64,000 nucleotides of DNA, taken from the NCBI RefSeq assembly GCF_002157855.1, contig NZ_CP020880.1, positions 4,030,001 to 4,094,000 of the forward strand, read 5' to 3'. Source of the DNA: Sutcliffiella horikoshii (GTDB taxonomy: Bacteria > Bacillota > Bacilli > Bacillales > Bacillaceae_I). A model generated the notes under the pieces. The model had not been told where the DNA came from and did no database searches. It was given only the letters and a program-made list of their open reading frames with translations. The position numbers were made by a program, and so were the translations under genes. The stretch's first letter is position 1; each line of letters opens with the position of its first letter. Below are positions 21,896 to 55,006 of the stretch, piece by piece.

Positions 21896-22020
21896 CTGGT
21901 GATTTTTGCAATGGGCTTCGCTTTCCGCGGGGCGGTGCTTGAGCCTCCTCGCTGCGCTGTGGGGTCTCAAGTCTACCGCTACCTCCCGCCGGAGTCTTCG
22001 CCCTTTGCTCCAATCACCAG
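21896..22020. repeat. R1 dispersed repeat, copy a
   Basis: 125 bp imperfect palindrome with terminal arms CTGGTGATT/AATCACCAG and inner CAATGGGC/GCCCTTTG. It lies between the rho terminator and rpmE2. Confidence 0.85.
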
Positions 22021-22037
22021 CTAGAAATCATCTATCA

Positions 22038-22070
22038 ATCAAAACGCACCCTGATGAAGCATGGGTGCGC
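22038..22070 (-). terminator. rho terminator
   Basis: CGCACCC/GGGTGCG stem and TTTTG tail, 14 nt after the rho stop on the minus strand. Confidence 0.8.
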
Positions 22071-22084
22071 GTGATTTTATATGA

Positions 22085-23356
22085 TTAGCGTTTTGCCGTT
22101 CCTGCTTTTTGGTCTTCTTCAAGCATTTCGAAGAACTCCTGGTTTGTTTTGGATTGGCGAAGTCTGCGCAATAGTTTTTCTGCAAAATCTGGAGAGTCTG
22201 ACATCGTTTTGCGGATGGCCCATAGCTTGTCCAGATGGTCTTTCGGGATAAGCAGCTCTTCTTTACGCGTTCCGGAACGACGGATGTCGATTGCTGGGAA
22301 GATACGACGTTCTGCAAGTTGACGGTCAAGGTGAAGCTCCATGTTTCCTGTACCTTTGAATTCCTCATAGATGACGTCATCCATACGGGAACCTGTGTCT
22401 ACAAGAGCCGTTGCAAGGATCGTCAAGCTTCCTCCTTCTTCAATGTTACGCGCAGCACCGAAGAAACGCTTTGGACGGTGGAATGCCGCAGGGTCGATAC
22501 CACCGGAAAGTGTACGTCCACTTGGCGGGATAACAAGGTTGTATGCACGTGCCAAACGTGTGATGCTGTCCATCAGGATAATAACGTCACGTTTGTGCTC
22601 TACAAGACGCAGGGCACGTTCTAGTACTAGCTCTGCCACTTTGATGTGGTTTTCAGGCACCTCGTCAAATGTGGAGCTTACAACGTCACCAGCAACGGAA
22701 CGCTCGATGTCTGTTACTTCCTCTGGACGCTCGTCAATCAGAAGGACGATTAGCTCAGCTTCTGGATGATTCGTCGTAATGCTGTTGGCAATTTCTTTGA
22801 TCAGCATCGTTTTACCGGCTTTTGGTGGCGCAACAATAAGTCCACGCTGACCGAAACCTACCGGCGCAATCAAATCCATGATGCGCGTGGAAAGGCCTTT
22901 CGGCGTTGTTTCTAGCACAATTTGACGATCTGGATATAAAGGAGTCAATGCCGGGAAATGGACACGCTCTTTTGCAGATTCCGGGTCGTCTCCGTTGACT
23001 GCTTCCACGTGCAGCAGCCCATAGTAACGCTCATTTTCTTTTGGAGGGCGCACTTTACCCGATACCTTGTCCCCGTTTCTTAAATCAAAACGACGGATTT
23101 GGGATGCGGATATATAAATATCCTCTGAACTTGGGGAATAATTGATCGGACGCAAGAAACCAAAGCCTTCCGATTGGATGACCTCCAGTACCCCTTCCAT
23201 AAACAATAGACCATCTTTTTCAGCCTGTGCTTTTAAAATAGCAAAAATAAGTTCTTTTTTCGTTAGTTTACTGTAGTAAGATACTTTATGTTGACGGGCA
23301 AATTCATATAGTTCTTTTAATTTTAAAGTTTCTAAGTGAGAAATAGTTAAATCCAT
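22085..23356 (-). CDS. rho: Transcription termination factor Rho
   Basis: Hexameric RNA-dependent ATPase that ends transcription. The 423-residue protein has the N-terminal helical cap ([26 protein letters not shown]), an RNA-binding cold-shock-like fold ([16 protein letters not shown]), Walker A ([14 protein letters not shown]), Walker B ([12 protein letters not shown]) and the R-loop/Q-loop [20 protein letters not shown]. No large insertion is present. The ATG at 23356 has a weak ribosome site (GTGGTG), which could reflect autoregulated low expression; the 30-residue upstream extension is not conserved. Confidence 0.96.
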
Positions 23357-23800
23357 AAAAAGAAAACACCACTCTATTCGTTTTAATTGTTTGATACGAT
23401 TATGATCCAAGGATAAATGTTTGTTTGTCTTCCAACACTGATTCAAGCCGAATTAAGTTCGAAGGATGGGAAATATTCTAATAGTCGCTGCACTTTTTAA
23501 AGGAAAATGAAATGGAAGTGAGGACGTTTCCCTCGTGTTTGTGGGATAAACTCTCCTTATGAAGAAATTGTAGAAGAATCGCTAGGAAGATATAAGGTAG
23601 ATTTTGCATAAATACTCGTAGTATTGTTTATTTTACCCACAAAATGGTCTTTTAAGCAACTATTTTCTGTAGACAAGCTTTGAGTATTGCGTTTATTTTC
23701 TGGGGAATATTCTTGTATTTCCCCTATTTGTGTCGAATGGGACTTGTTGTCTATTATAATATTCGGTAGGCGTGCGGGTTTTTTGACGTTGTAATATAGG

Positions 23801-23838
23801 AAAACCGTAAATGGGAAGGATCCATTTACGGTTTTTTT
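23801..23838. terminator. Terminator between glpX and rho
   Basis: CCGTAAATG/CATTTACGG 9 bp stem with U-runs on both sides, strongest in the plus direction (seven T). It can end the glpX transcript after the R1 repeats. Confidence 0.8.
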
Positions 23839-23854
23839 AGGGATTGCGTTGACT

Positions 23855-24151
23855 CCCAGTTGATTTTCATTCCGGGTGCTTGTGACTGATTTAATATGTT
23901 GTTTAGACACCGCTGTAGATTTCCGCAAATGGCTTCGCTTTCCTAGGGGCGCTGCTGGAGCCTCCTCGGCTACGCCTGCGGGGTCTCCACCTAGCACTAT
24001 CTCCCTCAGGAGTCTTCGCCTTTTGCTCCAATCCACAGCTAGATATTCACTAAGCACATGATATATTAGTTTTTTAGTGGCCGCCTGCGGGGTCTCAAGC
24101 CACCGTTACCTCCCCGCTGGAGTCTCACACCTTGCACTTCAATCGACTGGG
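23855..24151. repeat. R1 repeat copy split by a second R1 copy (nested)
   Basis: The left end (23855-23882, CCCAGTTGATTTTCATTCCGG-like) and right end (about 24079-24151, GCGGGGTCTC...AATCGACTGGG) together match the intact copy at 42697, minus its central ~40 bp. Between them lies a complete second copy at 23912-24039. The whole fills most of the 818 bp rho-glpX gap and lies in the glpX 3' untranslated region. A minus-strand ORF through it (23557-24057) is not credible. Confidence 0.8.
23912..24039. repeat. R1 dispersed repeat, inner copy b
   Basis: Terminal arms GCTGTAGATT/AATCCACAGC and inner GCAAATGGC/GCCTTTTGC. This copy interrupts the older copy spanning 23855-24151. Confidence 0.85.
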
Positions 24152-24174
24152 GAAATCTCATTCACTTACTTTAT

Positions 24175-25143
24175 TTAAGGCTTGAATACTAGGTTTGGTT
24201 TTTTCTTGATGTTGTGTTGGCCGTCGATGAAGCGGACGGTGCCCGATTTTGCACGCATGACAACGGAGTGGGTGGTAGCGTTGGTACCTTTGAATTGCAC
24301 ACCTCGCAGCAGTTCGCCGTCTGTTACTCCTGTTGCGGCGAAAATGGCGTCGTCTCCACGCACAAGGTCTTCCATTCTTAGTACGGCATCGATGTCTTCG
24401 ATGCCCATTTTGCGGCAGCGGATTAGTTCTTCTTCATTTTGTGGAAGGAGTTTTCCCTGAATCTCTCCTCCAAGGCATTTCAGTGCGACTGCAGCGATTA
24501 CGCCTTCTGGTGCCCCGCCGGAACCGAACAGGATGTCGACACCTGTGTGGTCAAAGGCTGTGTTGATGGCTGCGGCTACGTCTCCGTCATCAATTAGTTT
24601 GATACGGGCACCCGCTTCACGCAATTCTGCAATGATTTTTTCATGGCGCGGTCTGTTCAAAATAACTGCCACCACGTCTTCGATCTCTTTGTTTTTTGCT
24701 TCCGCCACGGCTCTCAGGTTGTCTGTGACAGATGCATTTATGTCAATCTTCCCTACTGCTGCAGGTCCGACAGCTATTTTATCCATGTACATGTCCGGAG
24801 CATGAAGCAGGTTTCCGTGGTCGGCAATAGCAAGTACGGCAAGTGCGTTCCAGCCTCCTGATGCAACGATGCTTGTCCCTTCAAGTGGATCAACTGCAAC
24901 GTCCACGCGAGGTCCGTATCCTGTGCCAAGCTTTTCACCGATATATAGCATAGGCGCTTCGTCCATTTCCCCTTCTCCGATGACAACTGTCCCTTTCATC
25001 GGAACCGTATCAAATACATCACGCATGGCGGAAGTAGCCGCTCCGTCCGCGCTGTCTTTATCTCCGCGTCCCATCCAGCGTGCTGAGGATAAAGCCGCCG
25101 CTTCTGTTACTCGAATCAATTCCATGGATAAACTTCTTTCCAT
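24175..25143 (-). CDS. glpX: Fructose-1,6-bisphosphatase, class II (GlpX)
   Basis: Gluconeogenic phosphatase converting fructose 1,6-bisphosphate to fructose 6-phosphate. The 322-residue protein has the metal-site motifs of class II enzymes: [18 protein letters not shown], the [14 protein letters not shown] segment and [16 protein letters not shown] at 25143 follows AAGGGAG at 8 nt. It lies between murA2 and rho as in B. subtilis; the transcript carries the nested R1 repeats before its terminator. Confidence 0.95.
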
Positions 25144-25283
25144 TCCTTCCACTCCCTTTGCATTCTATGAATCTAGTTATTTTTTATGGTAGGCCACCTG
25201 GCTGTCTGTGCAACCCGAGGCATTGTGCTATACTTTTCGTTAATAGTATATCACATTTGCCGGGATTTGAAAGCGGTATCTAC

Positions 25284-25328
25284 AAAAAAGAAGGAACCCG
25301 CTATTTTCAGCGAATTCCTTCTTTTTTA
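25284..25328. terminator. murA2 terminator
   Basis: AGAAGGAA/TTCCTTCT stem with inner CGCT/AGCG and U-runs on both sides, directly after the murA2 stop. Confidence 0.85.
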
Positions 25329-26621
25329 TTATGAGTTTTGCATTTGTTCGATTTCTTCTTGTGTCAGCTTCTCACGCCAGATCGTGGCACCTAGTCCTTC
25401 TAGCTTTTCTTCTAGATGACTGTAGCCGCGGTCGATGTGTTCAAGGCCTGTAACCTCAGTCAAGCCGTCAGCAAGTAGGCCAGCGATGACAAGTGCTGCT
25501 CCTGCACGGAGGTCACTTGCTCTAACCTTGGCACCTTGTAGCTGAACAGGCCCGTTGATGATGGCGGAACGGCCTTCTACTTTGATTTGTCCGTTCATGC
25601 GACGCAGTTCATCGACGTGCTTGAAGCGGGCGGAATAGATGGTGTCTGTTACGATGCTCGTACCTTGTGCCTTTGTTAAAAGGGTCGTCATCGGCTGCTG
25701 AAGATCGGTCGGGAACCCAGGATGAACAAGGGTTTTCACGTCGACAGCTTTCAGTTTTTCGCCAGGAACGACAAGTACTTGATCTTGGTCATTGTTGATA
25801 TCGATGCGTACGCCCATTTCACGAAGCTTTGCGATAAGCGGCTCCAAGTGGGTCGGAATGACATTGTCGATGATCATTTCGCCGCCTGCTGCAGCAGCCA
25901 TGATCATGTATGTACCTGCTTCGATTCGGTCAGGAATGATAGTGTGTTTGCACCCATGAAGGCTCTCCACGCCATCGATACGGATCACATCTGTACCCGC
26001 ACCTTTGATTTTCGCACCCATGCTGCTTAGTAGTGTTGCTACATCGATGATTTCCGGCTCTTTTGCCGCGTTTTCGATGATTGTTCTACCTTTCGCTTTC
26101 ACTGCAGCAAGCATGATGTTAATCGTTGCGCCGACACTTACCACATCAAGGTAAATGCGTGCCCCTCTTAGTTCTTCTGCTCGCAGGTAGATAGCGCCTT
26201 GCTCATTTGTTACCTCTGCTCCAAGCGCTTCAAAGCCTTTGATGTGCTGATCGATAGGTCTTGGTCCTAAATGACAGCCACCAGGTAATCCTACTACTGC
26301 TTTTTTGAAACGTCCAAGCATTGCTCCCATTAGATAATAAGAAGCACGCAATTTCTTCACTTTTCCGCTTGGAAGTGGCATGGCGATCATTTTGGAAGGA
26401 TCAACGGTTAGGTCTTCCCCCTCAAGCGATACGCTGCCGCCAATTTCCTCCAGCAGGCTGCTTAATATTTCTACATCTGATATTTGCGGTAGCCCTTCAA
26501 TCGTGACGGGTGAGTCCGCTAGAATGGTTGCAGGGATCAAGGCCACTGCACTATTTTTCGCTCCACTTACGCGTACGGTTCCATTTAATTGATTACCACC
26601 AAGGATTTTTAACTTTTCCAT
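25329..26621 (-). CDS. murA2: UDP-N-acetylglucosamine 1-carboxyvinyltransferase, second paralogue
   Basis: First committed step of peptidoglycan synthesis, adding enolpyruvate from PEP to UDP-GlcNAc. The 430-residue protein has the [10 protein letters not shown] substrate motif and the catalytic Cys116 in [13 protein letters not shown], the fosfomycin target. Position between glpX and tal matches the B. subtilis murAB (murZ) locus rather than the atp-adjacent murAA. RBS is AAGGGAG. Confidence 0.95.
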
Positions 26622-26835
26622 ATAGTTCTCCCTTCAAGGCGAGGTTGGTTTCCAAAAGTGCTATTGTCTATTATACACAATTATTACCAATCGTAAAAAT
26701 TTTCGTTACCTATTAGTTTACACGAAAATTTTCTTTTCATATATGAAAATGCATGAAACTTTATCAAATCGTAATATTTGATACCATACGACTATATTCG
26801 ACACGGTACTTTTGTCGAAAAATAGGTGAAATTAA

Positions 26836-26868
26836 CAAAAACCCCCTGCTTATTTTTTAGCAGAGGGT
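26836..26868 (-). terminator. tal terminator
   Basis: CCCTCTGCT/AGCAGGGGG stem followed by UUUUU on the minus strand. The R1 copy at 26893-27015 lies between the tal stop and this hairpin. Confidence 0.8.
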
Positions 26869-26892
26869 AAATGTTAGCATATTTTATTCATC

Positions 26893-27015
26893 GTTGCTCT
26901 CCGTTCCAGGCGCTTCGCTTTCCACGGGCGGTCCGTGAGCCTCCTCACAACGCTTCAGGGGTCTCACCTGTCCCTTCTTCCCGCAGGAGTCTGCGCACCT
27001 TTCACTGCGAACAAC
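26893..27015. repeat. R1 dispersed repeat, copy c
   Basis: Terminal arms GTTGCTC/GAACAAC. Begins 11 nt after the tal stop codon, inside its 3' untranslated region. Confidence 0.85.
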
Positions 27016-27026
27016 TAGGTTATAGG

Positions 27027-27671
27027 TTATTGTTTGCGGTTATTCCAGTCAGCTAGGAATTTTTCGATTCCTTGGTCTGTTAATGGGTGGTGGAAAAGTT
27101 GCATGAGCACTTTGTAAGGAACGGTCGCGATGTGTGCTCCGTTTAGCGCTGCATCGGTAATGTGCATAGGGTGGCGGATGGATGCCGCGATGATTTCTGT
27201 CGGGATATCATGAACGGTGAAAATGTCTGCAATGGTCGCGACTAAATCCATTCCATTTTGCCCGATATCATCAAGACGTCCTAGAAAAGGAGATACGTAT
27301 GTAGCTCCTGCTCTTGCTGCCATCAATGCTTGATTGGCGTTGAAAATTAGCGTCACATTTGTTTTGATGTTAAGGTCGCTGAATGCTTTTACCGCCTTCA
27401 ACCCGTCTGGAGTCATTGGCACTTTCACGGTAATGTTTGGCGCAATTGCCGCGAGCGCTTTCCCCTCTTCGATCATGCCATCTGCGTCAAGTGCAATTAC
27501 TTCGGCACTGACGGAGCCTTCTACAAATGAAGTGATCTCGCGTAGGCGGTCTTCGAATGAGATGTTTTCTTTTGCCACAAGGCTTGGGTTTGTCGTAACT
27601 CCTGCAAGTAATCCTAACGCGTGTGCTTCTTTAATTTCTTCTAGGTTTGCTGTGTCGATGAAAAATTTCAT
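27027..27671 (-). CDS. tal: Transaldolase, small (FSA/TalC) type
   Basis: A 214-residue TIM-barrel aldolase of the non-oxidative pentose phosphate branch, or fructose-6-phosphate aldolase-like. The Schiff-base Lys lies in NITVKVPMT, and the family start [16 protein letters not shown] and the motif [12 protein letters not shown] are present. The Bacillus orthologue is ywjH. It follows fbaA with its own ribosome site; a terminator-like hairpin separates them. Confidence 0.94.
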
Positions 27672-27720
27672 GTCATTCTCTCCCTTGTTTGTATAATGTT
27701 TACGCTTTCATATAAAAATG

Positions 27721-27748
27721 AAACAAAACCGCCGGTAATGGCGGTTCT
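27721..27748 (-). terminator. fbaA terminator
   Basis: AACCGCC/GGCGGTT perfect stem with a 6 nt loop and UUUGUUU tail, between fbaA and tal on the minus strand. Confidence 0.75.
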
Positions 27749-27802
27749 GCATATCGTTGCCTTGTTGTTGGTTGAAATATCTTGTTTGTTTAAGCTATTT
27801 TA

Positions 27803-28660
27803 TTACGCTTTGTTGGAAGATCCAAATTCGCGCATTTTGCCTTTTACTGTATCTTTGATTGCGTCGCGAGCAGGTCCTAGGTATTTACGAGGATCGTACT
27901 CTTCTGTTTTGGCAGCAAGTGTTTCACGAACTGCTTTTGCAGATGCAATTTGATTTTCTGTGTTAACATTGATTTTCGCTGTTCCAAAAGAGATTGCTTT
28001 TTGGATGTCATGCGTAGGAATTCCAGTTCCGCCGTGTAATACTAGAGGAACGCCAGCACGGTTGTTGATGTCTTCCATCTCTTTGAAGCCAAGGTTCGGT
28101 TCGCCTTTGTAAGGACCGTGTACGGAACCTAAAGCTGGAGCTAGGCAATCAATACCTGTGCGTTTTACAAGCTCTTCACACTCTTGTGGATCTGCATAGA
28201 TTACGCCATCAGCGATAACGTCGTCTTCTTGTCCACCTACTACACCAAGCTCTGCCTCAACAGATACTCCGTGGAAGTGTGCTAATTCTACAACTTTAGA
28301 AGTTGTTTCAATGTTCTCCTCAAATGGATGGTGAGAAGCATCGATCATTACAGAAGTAAATCCAGCGTGGATCGCTTTTGCACAAGACTCATAGCTAGAA
28401 CCGTGGTCTAAGTGAATCGCTACAGGTACAGTTACACCGTACTCTTCCATTAACGCTTTTACTAATGCTACGATTGTTTTGAAGCCACCCATATAACGAG
28501 CCGCACCTTCAGAAACTCCAAGGATAACTGGTGAATTCTCCTCTTGTGCTGCTTGTAGAATTGCTTGTGTGAACTCTAGGTTGTTCAGGTTGAACTGACC
28601 TACTGCATAGCCTTCTGCATTTGCTTTTTTCAGCATTTCTGTCATGGAAACTAAAGGCAT
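27803..28660 (-). CDS. fbaA: Fructose-bisphosphate aldolase, class II
   Basis: Zinc-dependent aldolase of glycolysis and gluconeogenesis. The 285-residue protein shows the zinc-binding [11 protein letters not shown] motif, [13 protein letters not shown] and the second metal segment [13 protein letters not shown]. The ATG at 28660 ([13 protein letters not shown]) is followed by the normal Bacillus N-terminus; a 51-residue upstream extension of the frame is not coding. AAGGAGG precedes it. Confidence 0.96.
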
Positions 28661-28900
28661 AATAACATCCTCCTTCGTATTATATTCACTCCGAAAAGTT
28701 TTTCCCGTTCTTACAAGGCGGTAAACACTTAGGCTCGTCCCATTGATTAAGGATTTCGCGGTACGTGCACCTTTTGTAAAAAATTTCACCCATATCAAAA
28801 CTAGCTTGACCAATCGGGAAACCAGTTATGTATATTGGGTAAAAAAGTGCAAAAACTTGTCGGATGATTTTTATCCAGTACTTAGCATATCAACTATGTA

Positions 28901-28935
28901 GAAAAACGGCAACTGCTGAAGTATGCCGTTTTTCA
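28901..28935. terminator. spo0F terminator
   Basis: AAACGGCA/TGCCGTTT stem with flanking A and T runs, 55 nt after the spo0F stop. Confidence 0.8.
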
Positions 28936-28989
28936 ATGTAAGCGATAACACTTTAAATGTTTTAATATTCAGTTACAAAATTGACGAAT

Positions 28990-29364
28990 TTACACCGATT
29001 GGCGCGGCATATTTTTACGGACCGCATCTCTTATTTCATCAATATCGAATGGTTTGGCAAAGTGCGTGATTGCTCCAAGGTCTTTCGATTCCTGGATCAT
29101 ATCCAACTCACCGTAAGCTGTCATAATGATTACTTGGATATCAGAATTAATTGCTTTTAGCCTCTTTAAAATCTCAATTCCGTCCATACCGGGGATCTTC
29201 ATGTCTAACAATACTAAGTCCGGTGAATGCTTTTCTACGATATCTAATGCTTGGTACCCGTTTGCTGCCTGAAACGTCTGATAGCCTTCTTTTTGAAATA
29301 CTTCATTCAACAAAATCCGTATCCCATACTGGTCATCCACAATCAGTAATTTTTGACCCACCAT
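28990..29364 (-). CDS. spo0F: Sporulation phosphorelay response regulator Spo0F
   Basis: Single-domain receiver that takes phosphate from sporulation kinases and passes it to Spo0B. In 124 residues it has the acidic pair D10/D11, the phosphorylated D54 ([13 protein letters not shown]), T82, H101 and K104 (THFAKPFD), all in the B. subtilis positions. No output domain. The divergent neighbour is ywjG, as in B. subtilis. Confidence 0.96.
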
Positions 29365-29410
29365 TACACCCCACCTCTAAAAATAATCAATCCGTTTCCA
29401 TCCACCCACC

Positions 29411-29450
29411 TATTTCTACTATAATAGTCTTATTTCCTCCTTTTTCGACC
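29411..29450 (-). promoter_or_regulatory. Candidate sigma-H promoter and 0A box upstream of spo0F
   Basis: Minus strand AGGAAATA (29431-29438) and GTAGAAATA (29411-29419) resemble sigma-H elements, about 50 nt upstream of the start. GGTCGAA at 29444-29450 differs from the TGTCGAA Spo0A box by one base. spo0F is sigma-H and Spo0A controlled in B. subtilis. Confidence 0.45.
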
Positions 29451-29494
29451 GGGAAATTTTTTGATGAAGGAAGGAAATAAAAAAATTTCGTGAA

Positions 29495-29540
29495 GGGGTC
29501 AGACCCCTGCAGGACTTTCCCCCTTGATGTAGAAGGCTCC
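29495..29540. repeat. R2 palindromic repeat, type A
   Basis: GGGGTCAGACCCC at 29495-29507 plus the conserved tail, in the 343 bp spo0F-ywjG divergent gap. Confidence 0.8.
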
Positions 29541-29588
29541 GGCCTACTTGGCGGATGTCGGATTATGTAGGAAAAACGCGAACGAAAA

Positions 29589-29625
29589 GGGGTCAGACCC
29601 CCCTAGGATTTTTGCTACCTATGTC
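29589..29625. repeat. R2 palindromic repeat, type A
   Basis: Second copy in the spo0F-ywjG gap, 94 bp from the first; the tail ends at ATGTCATAC instead of GTCGAA. The 94 bp offset is the same as that of the pair at 17366/17460. Confidence 0.8.
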
Positions 29626-29707
29626 ATACTAACTTTCATTATACTTGAGTTATGGTGGAATGAGGGTATTGGAATATGCTAATAATTTGTTTAGGAGTGT
29701 GATTTGG

Positions 29708-30259: not shown

Positions 30260-30291
30260 GAGGACACATTTTTTTCGTAGATGTGGCTTGA

Positions 30292-31065: not shown

Positions 31066-31076
31066 GGAGGTTCAGC

Positions 31077-31352: not shown

Positions 31353-31360
31353 TAACCATA

Positions 31361-33968: not shown

Positions 33969-34144
33969 TGTCTGCACATCCTTTCTATATATGTAAAAAG
34001 ACAATATTCATAGCAATTCCTAGAAAAATCCATACCACTCATTATAAACAAAATACCAATGTTTAATCCAGCATAAAATAAATCTTTCCCTCAAAAAAAT
34101 GAAAAATGGGTAAAAAGGAGAAAAAATGAAGAAATAAAAAAAAG

Positions 34145-34183
34145 GGGGTCAGACCCCCAAAGGTATTTCCCTCTCCGCGTCGA
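34145..34183. repeat. R2 palindromic repeat, type A
   Basis: GGGGTCAGACCCC with AAAGG, T-rich and CCCTCTCCGCGTCGAA tail, after the icmF stop. The remaining part of the 299 bp icmF-rpoE gap holds no gene that I can see. Confidence 0.8.
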
Positions 34184-34267
34184 ACTCTATATAGTTAGCC
34201 CAGAAACCCCGGCTCGCCGAGGTCCCCGTGTATTTTATTTACGTATTTTTGTTTTAGATATTTTTGT

Positions 34268-42696: not shown

Positions 42697-42827
42697 CCCA
42701 GTTGCTTTGCGTTCCAGGTGTTCGCTTTCCGCGGGAAGGTGTTTGAGCCTCCTCGCTTCGCTGCGGGGTCTCAATCAACCTTTTCTCCCCCGCAGGAGTC
42801 TCACACCTTGCACTCCAAGCAACTGGG
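42697..42827. repeat. R1 dispersed repeat, copy d
   Basis: 131 bp, terminal arms CCCAGTTGCTT/AAGCAACTGGG (11 bp, perfect) and inner AGGTGT/ACACCT. Sits between the operator at 42876 and the thiolase start. Confidence 0.85.
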
Positions 42828-46554: not shown

Positions 46555-46591
46555 CGAGTTTTAGATTTTCATTTAAAAAGGAGCCGGTTGC

Positions 46592-47545
46592 ATGAGGATT
46601 CGCTTTGGATTTGTATCACAATCATGGACGCTCTGGGAAGCCTCCCCTGCCAGAGCACTCACCTATACTCGTTATAAACAGATGTCTGCCGAGGAGGGGC
46701 GGGAAAAGTTACTCTCTGTGACGCGTGAGAATTTAATGAACACGCTGCGGACGATTTACTTTTGCATCGCGCACGAAATTAAAGTGTTCCGCTTCTCCTC
46801 TTCCATTGTTCCGCTTGCAACACATCCGGATGTAAAGTGGGACTTTGTTAAGGAGTTTGGCGATGAATTCAAGGAGATTGGCGATTTGGTAAAGCGCTAT
46901 GGCATGCGTTCGAGCTTTCATCCCAATCAATTTACCTTGTTTACGAGTGATAAGCCGCATATAACGGAGAATGCGGTCATTGATATGGTGTACCACTATG
47001 ACATGCTGAAGGCCATGGGGCTAGAGGATCAGGGGACGATCAATATCCATGTCGGTGGGGCTTACGGGAACAAGGAGCTTGCGGTGGAACGGTTTCGGGA
47101 GAATTTGAAGCAGTTACCGGATGAGGTCCGGGCACGGATGACATTGGAAAACGATGATAAGACCTACACAACAGAGGAAACATTGGTGTTGTGCGAGGAG
47201 CTTGGAATCCCCCTTGCGTTTGATTACCATCACGAGTACGCCAATCCGAGTTCTATGTCATGGGAAGAGCTTCTTCCACGTGTGTATGCGACGTGGAAGG
47301 ATATTGGCATCATTCCAAAGATCCATATCTCCTCCCCTATTTCAGAAAAAAAATTGCGCCACCATGCGGACTTTGTGGATTTGCAATTTCTGATGGAGTT
47401 TTTAAAAGTGGTTGTCGGACTTGGACAGGATGTTGACTTTATGGTGGAAGCAAAACGGAAAGACGAAGCCGCACTGCAACTATGCGAAGACATCGCCAAA
47501 ATCAGAGGTGTCAAACGAATTACCGGCGGTGCGGTGGAATGGTAA
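46592..47545 (+). CDS. uvsE: UV damage endonuclease UvsE
   Basis: TIM-barrel endonuclease that nicks 5' to UV photoproducts in an alternative excision repair route. The 317-residue protein starts MRIRFGFVSQSW and has the metal-binding His/Glu/Asp set in SFHPNQF, NIHVGGAYGNK, LENDDKTYT, FDYHHEY and KIHISS. RBS AAAGGAG. Follows cls by 37 nt; in Bacillus it is ywjD and expressed in the forespore. An R2 type B hairpin follows. Confidence 0.93.
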   Translation: MRIRFGFVSQSWTLWEASPARALTYTRYKQMSAEEGREKLLSVTRENLMNTLRTIYFCIAHEIKVFRFSSSIVPLATHPDVKWDFVKEFGDEFKEIGDLVKRYGMRSSFHPNQFTLFTSDKPHITENAVIDMVYHYDMLKAMGLEDQGTINIHVGGAYGNKELAVERFRENLKQLPDEVRARMTLENDDKTYTTEETLVLCEELGIPLAFDYHHEYANPSSMSWEELLPRVYATWKDIGIIPKIHISSPISEKKLRHHADFVDLQFLMEFLKVVVGLGQDVDFMVEAKRKDEAALQLCEDIAKIRGVKRITGGAVEW

Positions 47546-47561
47546 AGTGATAAAGAAGTAA

Positions 47562-47612
47562 AGAGGGGTCTGACCCTCACCGCTCTAATGCGGTGAAGGA
47601 TCAGACCCCTCT
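47562..47612. repeat. R2 type B hairpin between uvsE and the XapX gene
   Basis: AGAGGGGTCTGACCCT...CACCGC pairs with GCGGTG...CAGACCCCTCT around a TCTAAT loop; nearly perfect 22 bp arms. It lies between convergent genes and may double as a terminator, though only CTCT follows. Confidence 0.8.
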
Positions 47613-47615
47613 CTC

Positions 47616-47792
47616 TTAGTTGCTTGATTGGAAGATCGGTGCGACCCAGGTGAATAGGCGGTAGCCGAGGTAGATGCCGACGATTCCTACGATGCCGGAG
47701 AATACGGGTGGTGCTGGGATTGGCAGGCGGAACAGGGCGAAAAGGAATCCTACGACCATACCTGTTGCTAGTGCTAATAAGCTTTCTTTCAT
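47616..47792 (-). CDS. XapX domain protein (small membrane protein)
   Basis: A 58-residue gene: ATG at 47792 with AAGGGAG upstream, stop at 47616-47618. The protein has two hydrophobic segments (LLALATGMVVGFLFALFRL and VFSGIVGIVGIYLGYRLF) joined by the PIPAPP motif diagnostic of the XapX domain. Function unknown; relatives are small membrane proteins sometimes linked to transport operons. The translated reading frame, ribosome site and motif together make it a real gene. Confidence 0.85.
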   Translation of the reverse strand: MKESLLALATGMVVGFLFALFRLPIPAPPVFSGIVGIVGIYLGYRLFTWVAPIFQSSN

Positions 47793-47839
47793 AGTGGAAA
47801 ACTCCCTTGTTGTTTTATCTTATGTTGTTTATTTTGGCC

Positions 47840-47881
47840 AAAAGAAAGCTCTCTACTCTAATTTCTAGTAGAGAGCTTTTT
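47840..47881. terminator. argS terminator
   Basis: AGCTCTCTACT/AGTAGAGAGCT perfect 11 bp stem with flanking A/T runs, directly past the argS stop. Confidence 0.9.
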
Positions 47882-47885
47882 GGCA

Positions 47886-49556
47886 TTACATTTTCTCTGG
47901 TGCAGAAACTCCGATCAACTTAAGTGCATCTTGCAGTGTAATTTGAACAGCTTTCATCAAACCGAGGCGTGCTCTGGATTTTTCTTGATTGTCAGGGTCT
48001 AATACTTTCTCCGCATTGTAGAAACTGTGCAGTGCGGATGCGAGTTCAAATGTGTAGTTCGTGATACGGTGCGGGATGCGCTTTTCTGCCGCTTCCGCTA
48101 CCGCAAGTGGGTATTCCCCAAGCTTTTTCAAAAGATCGATCTCTTTTTCAGAGGAGATGTGTTCAAGCGCGAAGTTTCCTTCTAGGCTCAAGCCTTGCTC
48201 TTCCCCTTGGCGAAGCATGCTGCAAATACGAGCATGTGCGTATTGTGCATAGAAAACCGGGTTTTCGTTGGACTGGGATACTGCCAAGTCCATATCGAAA
48301 TCTAGATGTGTATCCCCTGAACGCATGGCGAAGAAGTAACGTACGGCATCCAAGCCCACTTCTTCCATCAAATCACGCATCGTTACCGCTTTACCGGTAC
48401 GTTTGCTCATTTTCATCTTTTCGCCGTTTTGGAAAAGGTGAACAAGCTGGATAATTTCTACTTCCAATGCGGCTTTTCCGTAACCAAGCGCTTCAATGGC
48501 AGCTTTCATACGAGGGATATAACCGTGGTGGTCTGCTCCCCAGATGTTGATCAGCTTGTCATGGCCTCGTTTTAGTTTATCTTGGTGGTACGCGATGTCC
48601 GGCGTCAGATATGTGTAAGAACCGTCATTTTTAATGAGTACACGGTTTTTGTCATCGCCAAATTCTGTGGAGCGGAACCATGTTGCTCCCTCTTCTTCAT
48701 AGATGTGGCCCTGTTCGCGAAGGGTCGTTAGAGCCTCGTCGATTTTTCCATTGTTGTACAAGGAAGTCTCAGAGTACCAAACGTCAAAGCGGACACGGAA
48801 CTCTTCTAAATCCTGTTGCAATTTTTTCATTTCGTATTTTAAGCCGTATTCACGGAAAAAGCTGCGGCGGTCTTCTTCTGATTCGTTGACGAAACGGTCG
48901 CCGAACTCATCTGCAATTGCCTGTCCGATTCCGATGATGTCTTTGCCATGATAGCCGTCTTCTGGCATTTCTTTGTCTTGACCAAGCGCTTGGAAGTAAC
49001 GTGCCTCAACGGAAAGTGCCAGGTTATTGATTTGGTTACCTGCGTCGTTGATGTAATATTCGCGTGTTACCTCATAGCCTGCCTTATCCAGTACATTACA
49101 AAGGGAATCCCCCACTGCAGCACCACGGGCATGTCCTAGGTGAAGGTCGCCTGTAGGATTTGCCGAAACAAACTCGACATTGATTTTTTCACCCTTACCG
49201 ATGTTGGAACGTCCGTAATCGGCGCCTGCTTTTAGGATCGTCGGAATTAGGTCTGTCAAGTAGGCATTGTCCATGTAAAAGTTGATGAATCCAGGACCAG
49301 CGATATCGATCTTTTCGATGGATGCTTTGGATTGATCAAAATTTTTCACAATTTCTTCTGCAATCATACGAGGTGCTTTTTTCGCTACGCGCGCAAGCTG
49401 CATCGCCATGTTTGTGGAATAGTCCCCGTTCGCTTTATCCTTTGGTGTTTCTAAAACAATAGCTGGAATTTGCTCCTCTGTTGCCAAGCCTGCTTTCAGA
49501 ACGGAAGCCTTAATCTCTTCTTTCAGGCGTTCTTGTACTTGTTCTACTATATTCAT
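47886..49556 (-). CDS. argS: Arginyl-tRNA synthetase
   Basis: Class I synthetase charging tRNA-Arg. The 556-residue protein has the additional N-terminal domain (1-110), the HIGH-type motif HLGHARGAA, the KMSKS-type [11 protein letters not shown] and the anticodon-binding DALR domain at the C-terminus ([17 protein letters not shown]). ATG overlaps the ywiB stop by 4 nt. No T-box leader is visible upstream, as the operon starts with ywiB. Confidence 0.97.
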
Positions 49557-50008
49557 CTTGCCTGTTCCTCCTCGTAGTTGATTGTTATCAAGTATTGACC
49601 GGTTATTTGATCTTGAACCTTCAATTTATAGTCAAGCTGCAAACAGCCTCGTTTCTTTTCCCGATCCTTCATCATGACCACTTTTTCGGTTTCCGTTTCA
49701 AACTGAAACCTTGCTCCACCGCCCTGGTAGCTGCCGTCTGTCGTTTCACCGGCACGGAAGGATTGCAGCATATTGATGTCACCTGAACGCTTCAGACGCA
49801 CTTCTTTGTCCGTAATTTTATAAAAACAATCGACCTTCTCCTTGCCTTCCAATTCCTCTGAGAAGACGATGTACTCTGATTCACCTTTTATGTAGTATTG
49901 ACCATCTGCTCCAAACACAACAAACTCTCTGTCATTATCCGCATTAATTATTTCCGACTGGAACGTCACCTTTATCGGCATCTTTAAGTGATTTTGATTG
50001 TCTGCCAT
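49553..50008 (-). CDS. ywiB: DUF1934 family beta-barrel protein YwiB
   Basis: A 151-residue protein of the DUF1934 family, a small lipocalin-like beta barrel always found ahead of argS in bacilli. Strand-rich sequence such as [38 protein letters not shown] and YITINYEEE is visible. No enzyme activity is known. The ATG at 50008 ([10 protein letters not shown]) is preferred over one four codons upstream because AAAGGATG lies 9 nt before it. It overlaps argS by 4 nt. Confidence 0.88.
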
Positions 50009-50166
50009 CTGGCCCCACATCCTTTTATCTTTAACGCTTATTGGTTCGCGTCGATTTTTCTATAACCTTCATAGTATAAAACAAGTAGGGTGTGGAGTTC
50101 AATAGAGGATGTCGGAAGATTTGGGGAAATCGGTGGTTTTTGGGGTGGTTTGGGAGTAGAGAGGAG

Positions 50167-50430
50167 TTCTATTTGACAGTTAGTTTGAGTCTCCTCGGGC
50201 TTCGGGGGTATAGAGCCAATCTATCTGACTTTTCAGGCGAGTTTCTTTGCGCTTCGGACGTTTAGAACCGTTCTATTTGACCTTTCTCGTGATTTCCCTC
50301 GGGCTTCGGGCGTTTAGAACCGTTCTATTTGACCTTTCTCGTGATTTTCCTCGGCCTTCGGGCGTATAGAACCGTTCTATTAGACTTTTCACCAGGATTT
50401 CTTGAGCCTTCAGGAGTATAGAACCCTTTT
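50167..50430. repeat. Tandem array, 52 bp period, five units plus a partial
   Basis: Units begin at 50167, 50219, 50271, 50323, 50375 and a partial one at 50427. Each has TTCTATTTGAC, a variable middle, TCGGGCTTCGGGCGT and TAGAACC. Units 3 and 4 are almost identical. The array fills the 498 bp gap before ywiB and ends 5 bp from the speB terminator. Confidence 0.9.
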
Positions 50431-50434
50431 ATAC

Positions 50435-50496
50435 ACAAAAAAGCCCCGTTCCCTAAGCAGCCGCTTAGCAGCAATCACTTAGAAAACAGAGCCTAT
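50435..50496 (-). terminator. speB terminator
   Basis: A long stem of AGGCTCTGTTTTCTAAG with TTAGGGAACGGGGCT (with wobbles) and a UUUUUU tail, just downstream of speB on the minus strand. Confidence 0.75.
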
Positions 50497-50506
50497 TTTC
50501 AAAATT

Positions 50507-51379
50507 TTATTTTACCCAACCTAAAATCATTTCACGGATCAGCTTGCTCGCTGTGTTGGCAGTCTGCTCAGAAGTGTCATAGATTGGTGCAACCTCTACC
50601 AAATCCGCTCCAACTACGTTCACATCGGAACCTGCGATGGCATGGATGGATGCAAGCAATTCACGGGATGTAATGCCGCCGCAATCCACTGTACCTGTAC
50701 CAGGTGCGTGTGCAGGGTCAAGCACGTCAATGTCGATTGTTACATATACCGGACGGCCAGCAAGTGTCGGAAGGATCTCTTTTAACGGCTCAAGCACTTC
50801 GAATTTGGAGATGTGCATGCCGACTTCCTTCGCCCATTGGAACTCTTCCTTCATACCTGAACGAATTCCAAATGAGTACACATTCTTAGGTCCAATCAGG
50901 TTTGCTGCTTTCTTGATCGGTGTAGAGTGGGAAAGCGGCTCGCCTTCATAGTCGTCACGAAGGTCTGTATGTGCGTCCATGTGGATGATGGCAAGGTCAG
51001 GGTATTTTTTGTACATTGCTTTGATGACAGGCCAAGATACAAGATGCTCTCCGCCCATTCCAAGTGGGAACTTGTCTTTTTCTAAAAGACTGTCGATGTA
51101 TTCTTCGATTATTTCGATGCTTTTTTGCGGGTTACCGAATGGCAATGGGATGTCGCCTGCATCAAAGTATTTTACTTCTTCTAATTCGCGGTCAAGATAC
51201 GGGCTGTACTCTTCCAGTCCGATGGATACTTCGCGGATACGGGACGGGCCGAAGCGAGATCCTGGACGGTAGCTTACTGTCCAGTCCATCGGCATGCCGT
51301 AGATCACTGCTTGACTATCTTCAAAGCTCGGGTGGCTTTTAATAAACACGTTGCCAGAATATGCTTCATCAAAACGCAT
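50507..51379 (-). CDS. speB: Agmatinase
   Basis: Hydrolyses agmatine to putrescine and urea. The 290-residue ureohydrolase has the dinuclear manganese motifs GGEHLVSWPV, IHMDAHTDLRDDYEG and TIDIDVLDPAHAPGTGTVDCGGIT. RBS AAGGAGG. It lies downstream of speE on the same strand, as in B. subtilis, but an R2 hairpin sits in the gap between them. Confidence 0.96.
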   Translation of the reverse strand: MRFDEAYSGNVFIKSHPSFEDSQAVIYGMPMDWTVSYRPGSRFGPSRIREVSIGLEEYSPYLDRELEEVKYFDAGDIPLPFGNPQKSIEIIEEYIDSLLEKDKFPLGMGGEHLVSWPVIKAMYKKYPDLAIIHMDAHTDLRDDYEGEPLSHSTPIKKAANLIGPKNVYSFGIRSGMKEEFQWAKEVGMHISKFEVLEPLKEILPTLAGRPVYVTIDIDVLDPAHAPGTGTVDCGGITSRELLASIHAIAGSDVNVVGADLVEVAPIYDTSEQTANTASKLIREMILGWVK

Positions 51380-51403
51380 GAGTGGTTTCCTCCTTGAATG
51401 AAG

Positions 51404-51450
51404 GGGTCTGACCCTTAGCGCTTTAACGCGCTGAGGGTCAGACCCCTCTT
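51404..51450. repeat. R2 type B hairpin inside the speE-speB operon
   Basis: Two 20 nt arms starting AGGGGTCTGACCCT with a single mismatch around TTTAAC. On the minus strand it lies after the speE stop (16 nt) and 24 nt before the speB start, where it could restrain speB expression. Confidence 0.85.
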
Positions 51451-51465
51451 TATCACTCTATCTTA

Positions 51466-52293
51466 TTACTTCACTAAATCAGCGACGAATTTTGGTAGGG
51501 CGAATGCTGCTTTGTGCAGGTCTTTTGTGTAGTATTTTGTGTCGATTTCGTGGAAACGGTCTTCGCTTACTTCCAGTGGGTCGTGTTTTTTGGATCCGAT
51601 GGTGAATGTCCACATGCCGCTTGGGTATGTTGGGATGTTTGCGATGTATAGACGTGTAATCGGGAAGATTTCACGTACGTCGCGTTGTACATTTGTGATC
51701 AACTCAGGTGTGAACCATGGGTTGTCCGTTTGCGCTACGAATACACCGTCTTCTTTTAATGCTTTAGAGATTCCCGCGTAGAAACCTTTTGTGAACAAGT
51801 TTACAGCTGGTCCAACAGGCTCCGTGGAGTCTACCATGATGACGTCATAAACGTTTTCGCTTTCTGCAATGTGCATGAAGCCGTCTCCGACTTTTACTTC
51901 TACGCGCTCGTTTTCAAGTTCTCCTGCAATTTCAGGAAGGTACTTTTTAGAGTACTCGATTACTTTTCCGTCGATTTCAACAAGTGTCGCTTTTTTCACA
52001 CTTGGGTGTTTCAGGACTTCGCGGATAACGCCGCCGTCTCCTCCACCTACTACCAACACATTTTCAGGGTTCGGGTGTGTGAACAATGGTACGTGTGCCA
52101 CCATTTCGTGATAAACGAACTCGTCCTTTTGTGTGGTCATCACCATTCCGTCCAAAATAAGCATGTTGCCGAACTCTTCTGTTTCTACCATATCAAGCTT
52201 TTGGAATTCCGTCTGCTCTGTATGTAAAGTGCGTTTGATTTTCGCTGTGATTCCGAAGTTTTTTGTTTGATATTCTGTGTACCATAATTCCAT
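51466..52293 (-). CDS. speE: Spermidine synthase
   Basis: Transfers aminopropyl from decarboxylated SAM to putrescine. The 275-residue protein has the SAM-binding motif [18 protein letters not shown], the polyamine-binding [14 protein letters not shown], and the gate-keeping DSTEPVGPA loop. It matches the B. subtilis SpeE along its length. Start ATG at 52293 ([14 protein letters not shown]); a second ATG four codons upstream lies too close to the AAGGGA ribosome site. Confidence 0.95.
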
Positions 52294-52611
52294 TTTGTAC
52301 AACATTCCCTTCCAAAGTAAATTGTTCTATCTATCTTGCGGCCATAAGCGTAAGTTTCTATCGTTAAATGCACGTTTTTATCGTTCCCTATCGATGAAAA
52401 ATGAAACATTGATTTCTCGGGATTTCTTGCTTCTGCGGCCAACGAACAACCACTTCCACTTTTCTAATCACCAAGAAAAAAGTATAGATGAATCTAGCAA
52501 AAATTCAAGTAAAAAATTTATTTTTCTGCAAATGTTTAAAAAGGTTCAAAGAATTTCATACTAGGAAATAAAATCATTTTTTATTAATGAAGATATATGT
52601 TCGTTTAAACG

Positions 52612-52735
52612 GTTGATTTCCGTTCCAGGCGCTTCGCTTTTCTGCGGGTGGTCCGGGAGCCTCCTCGGCAAGCCTGCGGGGTCTCCCCTGTCCCTTCCTC
52701 CCGCGGAAGTCTACGCGCCTTCCACTGCAATCAAC
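52612..52735. repeat. R1 dispersed repeat, copy e
   Basis: 124 bp, terminal arms GTTGATT/AATCAAC and inner AGGCGC/GCGCCT. In the 504 bp divergent gap between speE and pbpG, 62 bp upstream of pbpG. The rest of the gap is A/T-rich with no gene seen. Confidence 0.85.
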
Positions 52736-52797
52736 TTAGGTATTTCACTATGAAAAATTCATTAGATAGAGATCATAGATAAAGGGGGTTTGAGAAA

Positions 52798-54867
52798 ATG
52801 GAATTAATCACAAACGACCGGTTTCAGCAGGTCATCAAATATATTCGTGCCATGTTTTTTATCGGAATCATCCTATCAATCTCTTTCTTTCTTTTAGTTG
52901 GCGGAGTTTGGATATATGCAAAATCCAAGGGTGCCCCTCCCCTTTCCGTTACGCAGTCATCGATTTTTTACAGCAAGGACGGAGCGATCATCGGAGAGGC
53001 TCATAGTGGCGAGAAACGTTACTGGGTTGGACTTGAGGACATATCCCCTTATTTAGTGGATGCGACGGTGGCGGTAGAGGACAGGCGTTTTTTTACCCAT
53101 CACGGGTTTGACCCAAAACGGATTGGCGGGGCCATTCTTGCCGACATTAAGGCTCGCGCTAAGGTTCAAGGAGCGAGTACCATTTCGCAGCAATATGCTC
53201 GAAATCTTTTCCTTGTCCATGATAAAACGTGGAAGCGAAAGTGGGAGGAAGCCCTTTACACCATCAGGATCGAGGCAAATTACTCCAAGGAAGAGATTCT
53301 CGAAGGCTATTTGAATACAATCTATTATGGTCATGGCGCTTATGGAATTGAATCGGCGTCCTATTACTATTTTAACAAGCCAGCCAAGGAACTGACATTA
53401 GCGGAAGCCAGCATGCTTGCAGGCATACCGAAAGGTCCGAGCGTTTTCTCGCCTTATGCAGATAGCGACCGGGCACGCCAAAGGCAAGAGATTGTTCTCC
53501 AATCTATGGTGGAAAACGGCTCTCTTACTAAAAAAGAAGCGGAAGAAGCGCTCGCACAACCACTGACATACGGAAACCGTGAGCATCTGCCGAAAGAGTT
53601 TATGGCTCCATATTTCCAAGATGCAGTTCGGGCGGAGATTAGAAATGTTTTGGGCCTGCAAAAAGAGTTAGAAATGGGCGGGCTTCACATTTACACCACC
53701 TTGGATCCTACTCTCCAGGCTATTGCGGAAGAAGAAGTGGAGAAAACGTTCGATCCAGCGTCTGACATGCAAGTCGGCTTCGTTTCAATGGATCCGAAAA
53801 CAGGAAGAGTGCTTGCGCTAGTCGGTGGAAGAGATTATGAAGAAAGCTCGTACAACCGGGTTACACAGGCAGAAAGGCAACCAGGGTCGACTTTCAAGCC
53901 ATTGTTGTATTACCGGGCGCTTGAGCAGGGGTTCACGCCATCCACTGGTTTCCGGAGTGAAGTGACCACTTTCCAAGTGGATAACGGACGTTCGACATAC
54001 ACGCCGCACAACTTCAACAACTACTATGCCAATGATGTTTTGACGATGATGCAGGCCTTGCCATTATCCGATAACGTCTTTGCGGTAAAAACACATCTGC
54101 TGCTTGGTGAAGAAGAATTGACCAAACAGGCAAAAAAACTTGGCATTCATTCGCAAATTAAGGATGTCCCTTCTCTTGCACTTGGTACATCTCCTGTACG
54201 AGTAATCGATATGGCCAATGCCTACAGTGTTTTTGCAAACGGTGGGAAAGAAGTGAAGCCTGTTTTTATTGAAAAGGTAGTGAACTACCGTGGAGAAGTT
54301 CTTTTTGAGCGAGAAAAAGAAACGAAGCAATTGTTGGATCCTGATGTAACATTTGTACTGAATCATTTGATGACGGGAATGTTTGATCCGGCTTTAAACG
54401 GCTATATGGCCGTAACCGGGAATGCGATTCTCGACAAGCTGACAAGACCGTATGCCGGAAAGTCAGGGTCCACCGAAACGGACAGCTGGATGATTGGATA
54501 CACCCCGCAGCTTGTCAGTGCTGTCTGGACAGGCTATGACAGGGATCAATCGATTACGCTTTGGGCGGAAAAGCACTATGCGAAAAATTTATGGGCAGGA
54601 TTCATGGAGCGCGCGCTCGACAATAAATCGGTTGTGACTTTTGCCCCAACAGAAGGAGTGGTAGGGGTACAGGTCAACCCGCAAAGCGGCCTTCTAGCCA
54701 CAAGCGACTGCCCGGTTTCCAGGCTAAGCTATTATATAAAAGGAACCGAACCAACCGAATACTGCATGGCGCATCTAGAGGATGTAAAAGAGGAAGAAGC
54801 TATTCCTGATGAGCAGCCCAAAAAAGAAGATAAAAAATGGTGGAAACGATTTGTTCCATGGATGTAG
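52798..54867 (+). CDS. pbpG: Class A penicillin-binding protein (PbpG-like)
   Basis: Bifunctional peptidoglycan synthase. The 689-residue protein has a cytoplasmic N-terminus and a transmembrane helix (about 18-42), a glycosyltransferase domain with the catalytic E94 (VEDRRFFTHHGFD) and a transpeptidase domain with S364-K367 (PGSTFKP), S424-D-N426 and K555-S-G557. Locus and neighbours match B. subtilis ywhE (pbpG), which is expressed in the forespore for cortex and germ wall. RBS AAAGGGGG. Confidence 0.93.
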   Translation: MELITNDRFQQVIKYIRAMFFIGIILSISFFLLVGGVWIYAKSKGAPPLSVTQSSIFYSKDGAIIGEAHSGEKRYWVGLEDISPYLVDATVAVEDRRFFTHHGFDPKRIGGAILADIKARAKVQGASTISQQYARNLFLVHDKTWKRKWEEALYTIRIEANYSKEEILEGYLNTIYYGHGAYGIESASYYYFNKPAKELTLAEASMLAGIPKGPSVFSPYADSDRARQRQEIVLQSMVENGSLTKKEAEEALAQPLTYGNREHLPKEFMAPYFQDAVRAEIRNVLGLQKELEMGGLHIYTTLDPTLQAIAEEEVEKTFDPASDMQVGFVSMDPKTGRVLALVGGRDYEESSYNRVTQAERQPGSTFKPLLYYRALEQGFTPSTGFRSEVTTFQVDNGRSTYTPHNFNNYYANDVLTMMQALPLSDNVFAVKTHLLLGEEELTKQAKKLGIHSQIKDVPSLALGTSPVRVIDMANAYSVFANGGKEVKPVFIEKVVNYRGEVLFEREKETKQLLDPDVTFVLNHLMTGMFDPALNGYMAVTGNAILDKLTRPYAGKSGSTETDSWMIGYTPQLVSAVWTGYDRDQSITLWAEKHYAKNLWAGFMERALDNKSVVTFAPTEGVVGVQVNPQSGLLATSDCPVSRLSYYIKGTEPTEYCMAHLEDVKEEEAIPDEQPKKEDKKWWKRFVPWM

Positions 54868-54885
54868 TGTCTAAGATACACCGCT

Positions 54886-55006
54886 GTTGATTTCCGCAAA
54901 CGGCTTCGCTTTCCGCGGGGCGACCTTGAGCCTCCTCACTTCGTTGCGGGGTCTCAACAATGTCGCTTCCCCCCCGCAGGAGTCTGCGCCTTTTGCTCCA
55001 ATCAAC
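54886..55006. repeat. R1 dispersed repeat, copy f
   Basis: 121 bp, terminal arms GTTGATT/AATCAAC with inner GCAAACGGC/GCCTTTTGC. Begins 19 bp after the pbpG stop and ends before its terminator, so it should be part of the pbpG mRNA. Confidence 0.85.

Follow-up and report, generated by a model that had tools for sequence, protein, structure and literature searches.

The question raised by this locus is what a hairpin repeat of about 125 bases, here called R1, is doing at seven places in one window, the whole 64,000-nucleotide stretch of the Sutcliffiella horikoshii genome analysed (NZ_CP020880.1, positions 4,030,001 to 4,094,000). A covariance model was built from 26 R1 copies, including all six intact copies of the window, and these were recovered with E-values from 1.2e-30 to 5.4e-23, all on the + strand; copies used to build the model are bound to match it, and non-member copies in the genome reached equally high scores. 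Two are of the A type, at 26890-27018, directly after a terminator-like hairpin, and at 52609-52738, upstream of a penicillin-binding-protein gene. Three are of the B type, at 21895-22021, flanked by rho and the gene for L31, which both lie on the - strand, at 23912-24039, and at 54883-55009, past the penicillin-binding-protein gene. The sixth, at 42698-42826, is of the C type. The earlier note had counted seven loci in a single orientation; the seventh, the "outer" copy at 23855, is genuine, but it is split by the copy at 23912. The family defined by the note's shared motifs was confirmed by the model, but the quoted motifs vary, and CTTTCCTAGGGG, TTTCCACGGG and TTTTCTGCGGG occur too. Above the gathering score, the only Rfam match in the window was the L31 leader, which is unrelated to R1.

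The terminal arms paired as the note had proposed at 21895 (GGTGATT/AATCACC), 42698 (GTTGCTT/AAGCAAC), 52609 and 54883 (both GTTGATT/AATCAAC), but one mismatch each was found at 23912 (GTAGATT/AATCCAC) and 26890 (GTTGCTC/GAACAAC). Across an alignment of 86 copies spanning many genera, paired cells made up 93.8%, compared with 82.5 ± 0.4% in shuffles, two-sided changes were present in 20 of 27 pairs, and the covariation score was 0.294 compared with 0.026-0.063 when the partner column was slid; this alignment had been fitted to the covariance model, which favours the result. The observed values for arm change between genera with complementarity kept were reached in none of 500 shuffles, and a tree-based null gave five significant pairs in the multi-genus set. 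The claim that paired changes mark a selected structure was thus borne out, with covariation far past chance.

Could the paired changes instead have arisen by gene conversion between copies of an old, inert repeat? The presence of three subfamilies, A, B and C, within one genome fits such a history, as does the absence of significant pairs by the tree-based null within subfamily A or B of the window genome alone. The arms, however, differ strongly between genera and stay complementary: in an arm-swap test of 70 copies, a copy's own arms averaged -19.3 kcal/mol, whereas arms from other copies gave -12.4 and the best of 20000 permutations -14.7, a contrast weakened by one copy without an anchor and a few misplaced anchors. 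In only 41% of copies did the own partner rank in the top five for pairing, which agrees with an inert repeat; even so, this reading was already disfavoured and we regard it as highly improbable.

R1 is a numerous and widespread repeat. At least 150 full copies were found in the window genome, and R1 was present in all 18 genomes of the family and in at least 96 of 398 sampled from the class, the latter being a lower bound since eight candidates were scored per genome under stricter filters. The note's mention of similar repeats in other Bacillaceae therefore holds for this family and its relatives. No R1 match was found in the phages searched, and seven plasmid records gave partial matches. 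One of the matches listed came from a metagenome bin assigned to Gemmatimonadales, where contamination is possible. Clusters of similar proteins encoded beside R1 covered at most 8 of 278 loci, none of them identified. T-box leaders seen in loci of two relatives were unrelated to R1, and a resemblance to attC sites was dropped because the terminal motifs are oriented the opposite way.

The covariation would also be expected if R1 were a functional structured RNA, either an sRNA or a 3' UTR element, that had become amplified. Two T.G pairs were retained on the strand as written (81 of 84 and 84 of 85 copies). Counts of G.U versus A.C, compared to identify the acting strand, pointed in different directions: 49 versus 32 between genera, but 20:33, 26:49 and 16:13 within subfamilies A, B and C of the genome. 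R1 also resembles the S. aureus sRNA tsr24 (Rfam RF02577), whose AGACUCCUGAGGGAG and CCUAGGAAAGCGAAGCC arms are common to the B type, with scores of 17-34 bits that lie below the gathering score of 50 (best 34.3 bits, E 0.00058), the better matches spanning positions 129-204 of 238. Such an RNA is nevertheless hard to reconcile with at least 150 copies in one genome, with the occurrence of R1 at rho-rpmE in just 5 of 12 genomes of the genus, with the many R1 pairs just 3' of terminator-like hairpins and with the transposons that occupy R1 loops, and we consider it very unlikely. As R1 adjoins or lies within certain transposons and receives some of them at its tip, it appears to belong to transposon machinery rather than to a new RNA gene.

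The link to transposons of the IS1182 family emerged through near-identical copies in one other genome, G517. A transposase search that was independent of R1 found five equal-scoring genes in the window genome (358.6 bits; cut-off of the IS1182 model, 270), and DUF772 and DDE domains were present in the one that was scanned. All five corresponding full-length elements sat in an R1 apical loop and were flanked by target duplications of 8-9 bp, and each carried an R1 of its own between its left end and the transposase gene. Among the loci examined, 19 R1 loops were occupied, the R1 of the element being codirectional with the host R1 in 18 cases and opposed to it in one; L213, a twentieth candidate, did not reappear on re-checking. 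For the duplications, re-checked sites were used, since the listing of 28 rows included several chance or enclosing repeat pairs.

The split copy in the window is one such nest. The 5' remnant of the outer C-type R1 (23855-23881, +) is followed by a transposase-less IS1182-type derivative (23882-24082, +), which has lost its left inverted repeat, keeps the right one, TTTTTTAGTGGCC, at 24070-24082 and has the B-type R1 at 23912-24039 as its cargo; the 3' remnant (24083-24151, +) begins in the apical loop. In a close relative (G009) that is 97% identical over a 1-kb query, the outer copy is intact (L172:8337-8464), and unoccupied R1s were found there at three element-occupied places (window 23855, L006 and L027). 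The same relative has no R1 at 26890 or 52609, has one at 54883 and has one together with another small insert at 42698. Derivatives of about 210-220 bp, consisting of R1 between two terminal inverted repeats (TIRs), occupy R1 loops in several species and mostly have a target duplication. They share their TIRs with the autonomous element, and by inverted repeats and target duplication they resemble MITEs. Among 84 B-type copies, 12 had at least one TIR and six had both. Solo R1s and pairs of an A with a B copy differ from MITEs in this respect: no adjoining GAGGCCACTGAAAAA-type inverted repeat, the single repeat searched, was found in 162 of 174 copies, counted after removal of 10 of 82 and 5 of 110 matches below 60 bits and of same-place duplicates. 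The flanks of the empty places in G009 were too diverged to resolve the ends of solo R1s and A/B pairs, or any target duplication.

A second arrangement was seen in a relative, G592, in which IS1182 elements have R1 on both sides of the gene, R1> transposase <R1 (L475, L493 and L495), the downstream R1 being always at distance 84 in the five copies that have one. An upstream R1 was also present in G412, in G517 and beside one fragment in the window genome. Altogether, 15 of 32 transposase loci, ten of which had been chosen for a known nearby R1, had an R1 within 400 nt upstream, every one reading toward the transposase. R1s themselves are often paired: 54 pairs were separated by less than 260 bp, the two copies being inverted in 53, and the commonest form in the window genome was A>, about 86 nt, <B. 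Most simply, such pairs would be derivatives of R1> tnp <R1 elements without the gene, and solo R1s would be remnants, both probably arising by deletion; among the loci read, the window's genus yielded no A> tnp <B element.

Taken together, R1 is probably a structured hairpin module in the DNA of insertion sequences of the IS1182 family (DDE) and of the small non-autonomous elements derived from them, doubling as a landing pad. Our confidence in this was lowered because elements with the same repeats, obtained by the transposase search in other genomes, did not use R1. These four (L445, L446, L447 and L464) had GAGGCCACTGAAAAA-type repeats and, by eye, sat in hairpin- or terminator-like loops, but neither carried nor targeted R1. 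The R1 core was present in only 4 of 30 loci from that search, and most other loci had been fetched for holding R1, so that its share among targets is biased upward. Also against this reading stand the 162 of 174 copies with no adjoining inverted repeat, the 10 of 30 R1-bearing genomes with no IS1182 match at that threshold (E<=0.001), and the small size of the protein clusters next to R1.

Orientation bears on this reading as well. Relative to replication, 45 of 46 A/B pairs had one orientation, and where the flanking genes converged 16 of 17 still followed replication (114 of 120 R1 units were placed, using mechanical ORF calls). A strong replication-fork bias is unexpected for a DDE element and counts against the IS1182 reading. 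It would suit a REP/REPIN-like element moved as single-stranded DNA by an HUH (Y1) transposase, on which IS1182 merely lands and from which it captured copies: lagging-strand insertion is described for Y1 elements in the accessible text of PMC6006769, R1 is a long imperfect hairpin with high copy number and inverted pairs, and it persists in 10 of 30 R1-bearing genomes that gave no IS1182 match at E<=0.001. Against this, the sole Y1 (RAYT-type) gene found in the window genome was flanked by another palindrome, GGGGTCTGACCCC, and its 3.3-kb locus contained no R1; as this gene belongs with that different REP, it was rejected as the mobiliser of R1. A full R1 was found in none of 17 Y1 loci checked, which gave one lone 11-mer match, and the R1> tnp <R1 elements of G592 would not be expected from mere capture. 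Mobilisation by an HUH enzyme thus seems rather unlikely.

Both classes of known system share features with R1. According to the accessible portions of PMC1525189, REP, BIME and REPIN palindromes are landing sites of IS1397, IS621, ISPpu9/10 and ISRm22, and like R1 they are many-copy palindromes, partly in inverted pairs, that serve as specific landing sites. R1 is three to six times longer than REPs, given as 20-40 bp in the part of PMC3733652 available, is invaded by IS1182 elements, which are outside the five families named for REPs in that portion of PMC1525189, and unlike REPs is itself transposon cargo. That IS1182 elements target hairpins is already known: in staphylococci, IS1272 and TnSha1 recognise the structure, not the sequence, of the hairpins and terminators they target, as the accessible text of PMC4923244 and PMC5678879 describes, and the five elements of the window genome likewise target hairpins. 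In those texts IS1272 reportedly replaces or deletes part of the hairpin with no target duplication, whereas R1 loops are entered with a 7-10 bp duplication; the R1-using elements also differ from IS1272 as there described in reusing one repeat family and carrying that hairpin themselves. In the literature searched, which largely left out subscription papers, no published description of R1 was recognised and no IS1182 element carrying its own target was found.

Elements with GAGGCCACTGAAAAA inverted repeats thus enter the apical loop of a hairpin, duplicating 7-10 bp, and in the window genome their targets are the abundant R1 hairpins. Since both this type of element and its transposase-less derivative, presumably moved in trans by IS1182 transposases, bear an R1, each insertion splits one landing pad and imports another, giving nests. 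The structural constraint may reflect recognition of the hairpin, in DNA that is extruded or single-stranded, or a block on read-through transcription into the transposase gene; folded single-stranded DNA, an option raised in the earlier note, is kept as a possible form of R1. Our account of the role of R1 and of the spread of its solo copies is an inference. More tentatively, and at somewhat less than even likelihood, R1 could be a self-renewing landing pad: the transposase would recognise it on one strand, probably where it is extruded or single-stranded behind the replication fork, enter the loop in a fixed direction and bring the next R1 target with it, producing nests and sparing genes. 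If so, fast arm change under strict complementarity would be the transposase selecting hairpin shape.

The earlier note's selected fold and dispersed family both stand; its statement that no function is assigned gives way to an IS1182 module and insertion target, because the tie to these transposons allows a context and a candidate enzyme to be named. A very abundant Bacillales repeat thereby gains a context and a testable enzyme, the IS1182 transposase, and the likeness to tsr24 raises the possibility that an sRNA family annotated in S. aureus originated from a transposon hairpin. The IS1182 elements would also be a natural example of transposons that carry a safe insertion site with them. 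Little is understood of how structure directs DDE transposition, and the many natural targets, whose arms vary around a constant core, would offer a ready-made mutational scan.

The window held six intact copies of the hairpin repeat R1, each of about 128 nt and all on the plus strand, and a seventh that was present in interrupted form, which bears out the family of seven loci in one orientation described in the earlier note. On folding, the subfamily consensus sequences formed one long imperfect hairpin (-56 to -62 kcal/mol). The second helix separates the three subfamilies, reading AGGCGC/GCGCCT in A (68 of the 174 distinct copies read in the window's genome), AAATGGC/GCCATTT in B (84) and AGGTGT/ACACCT in C (19); three copies had no assignment. 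At least 150 full-length copies were counted in this genome, as 150 of 1140 first-look candidates were scored and all 150 passed. Separately, units of ~52 bp with about 72% similarity to one another are repeated in tandem at window 50149-50432. R1 was found in all 18 genomes of the family and, as lower bounds, in at least 96 of 398 genomes (at least 35 of 145 genera) drawn from the class and at least 4 of 398 drawn from the phylum. Among the matches listed were Sutcliffiella, Peribacillus, Neobacillus, Cytobacillus, Rossellomorea, Halobacillus, Planococcus, Sporosarcina, Lysinibacillus and Oceanobacillus. The rho-rpmE site carried R1 in 5 of 12 genomes of the genus. No description of R1 was recognised in literature searches.

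When 86 copies from many genera were compared, 93.8% of cells were paired versus 82.5 ± 0.4 in shuffles, and two-sided changes occupied 237 cells versus 57.4 ± 6.0; sliding the partner column by 1-3 destroyed the signal. The alignment had been made to follow the structure in the model, and this favours such a signal. Pairing energies computed without structural alignment gave a mean of -19.3 kcal/mol for a copy's own outer arms versus -12.4 across copies (69/70 copies), and the best of 20000 arm permutations reached -14.7 kcal/mol. A copy's own partner was among the five best-pairing arms for only 41% of copies, and in some genera the shared core was bordered by entirely different arms. Under a tree-based null written for this analysis in the style of R-scape, the covariation claimed earlier exceeded expectation at five pairs across the 83 multi-genus sequences, located in helices 1, 2 and 5 and each at least 85% canonical, and at none within the 66 sequences of subfamily A or the 84 of subfamily B when each was taken by itself. 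R1 might have a role as RNA, though with low probability; in favour of it, R1 clearly resembles the S. aureus sRNA family tsr24 in alignment, with a score below threshold, and two T.G pairs, which would wobble only on the as-written strand, are conserved on that strand. A wider comparison of G.U with A.C pairs did not single out either strand.

A transposase search of the window's genome returned five full-length IS1182-family genes of equal score and two fragments. All five full-length elements were bounded by the inverted repeats GAGGCCACTGAAAAA / TTTTTCAGTGGCCTC, had entered an R1 at its apical loop, 8-9 bp of which were duplicated on either side, and carried a further B-type R1 between left repeat and gene; DUF772 and DDE domains were found in the one element scanned. 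A derivative of ~210-220 bp, with R1 as sole content between the repeats, occupied R1 loops in this genome, G006, G012, Bacillus sp. RO1 and Sutcliffiella. The nested R1 at window 23912 is such a derivative with its left repeat lost, and the close relative G009 has an unoccupied R1 there, as it does at two further places, L006 and L027. Element and host hairpin ran in the same direction in 18 of 19 occupied loops and in opposite directions in one. Nesting of elements in one another's R1 loops, to a depth of two or three, was also seen (L337:3504-3945; L062:1349-1672). Four elements with the same repeats from other genomes (L445, L446, L447, L464), recovered by transposase search, had no R1 and sat, by eye, in apparent other terminator or hairpin loops; thus insertion seems to be governed by the loop and not by R1 as such. 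Most other loci were chosen for holding R1, so these counts do not measure how often R1 is the target. IS1272 of the IS1182 family reportedly targets hairpins without target duplication (PMC4923244, PMC5678879). Our literature searches recognised no description of an IS1182 element that itself carries the hairpin it targets.

At 23 places aligned with G009, R1 was missing from that relative at seven (L017, L026, L177, L232 and window 21895, 26890 and 52609). At L232 the place was taken by another repeat, with the terminator of the window's genome present and its A/B composite absent; L025 retained just a 3' piece. An insert of ~70 bp (CAAGGAAGGCTTCGGCAGC...), found at one fixed R1 position after CCCGCAGGA (L012, L017, L037, L043 and the L173:6940 region), is apparently a second small element with R1 as target. 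Tandem GATGAAGAC...GTCTTCAT-like arrays filled intergenic places where relatives carry R1 (L143, L157; L264 and L266 in G009).

In the window's genome, 54 R1 pairs lay less than 260 bp apart. An A copy facing an inverted B copy across ~86 nt accounted for 45 pairs with a shared orientation relative to the replication fork and one with the reverse, the other eight being other combinations; the replichore border was set by GC skew. From mechanical gene calls, 49 of 50 A-containing inverted pairs followed replication, 16 of 17 pairs between convergent genes did so, and in five cases both flanking genes opposed the pair. Single copies were less strict (with versus against replication: A, 11 and 5; B, 24 and 10; C, 13 and 1). 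This bias would suit an origin of R1 from RAYT, the HUH-type (Y1) transposase linked to REP palindromes, since Y1 elements are reported to target the lagging strand (PMC6006769); however, that origin lacks its key mark, because the one Y1 gene detected in the window's genome has a different palindrome at its flanks. In eight further genomes of the genus, the search gave one or two Y1 matches each, one of them degraded (G011). REP palindromes are themselves targets for insertion sequences of five other families (PMC1525189). Dispersed GGGGTCAGACCCC / GGGGTCTGACCCC palindromes were noted at window 10790-10851, 17346-17501, 29475-29630, 34125-34186 and 61907-61968, and further at 15923-16016, 47544-47594 and 60862-60945; one also adjoins the single RAYT-type Y1 gene detected in this genome (L390:1273-1965).

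R1 was also found around transposase genes. It lay within 400 nt upstream, always reading toward the gene, at 15 of 32 transposase loci, downstream only at four and nowhere at 13; ten of the 32 were preselected for nearby R1 (L188, L431, L433-L436, L468, L476-L478). The R1 core occurred in 4 of 30 loci from the IS1182 transposase search, and 10 of 30 R1-bearing genomes searched gave no IS1182 match. Upstream copies were present in G412, G517 and beside a gene fragment of the window's genome (L188). In G592, loci L475, L493 and L495 had R1 as written upstream of the gene and a reversed R1 downstream, the downstream distance being identical in five copies. At L475 and L486, two complete copies of a terminator-like hairpin enclosed IS1182 elements whose ends resemble CAGACTGTAGACAAA or CAGCTTGTAGACAAA, as if the whole terminator had been duplicated as target. 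No transposase gene between A and inverted B was found among the loci read in the window's genus. Among 44 aligned A/B composites, a terminator-like hairpin with a T-run preceded the A end in most of the 14 printed, and L475, flanked by two copies of such a hairpin, shares this setting. From the R1-flanked genes of G592 and the terminator setting of L475, we infer that the A/B pairs look like R1-flanked transposase elements that lack the gene.
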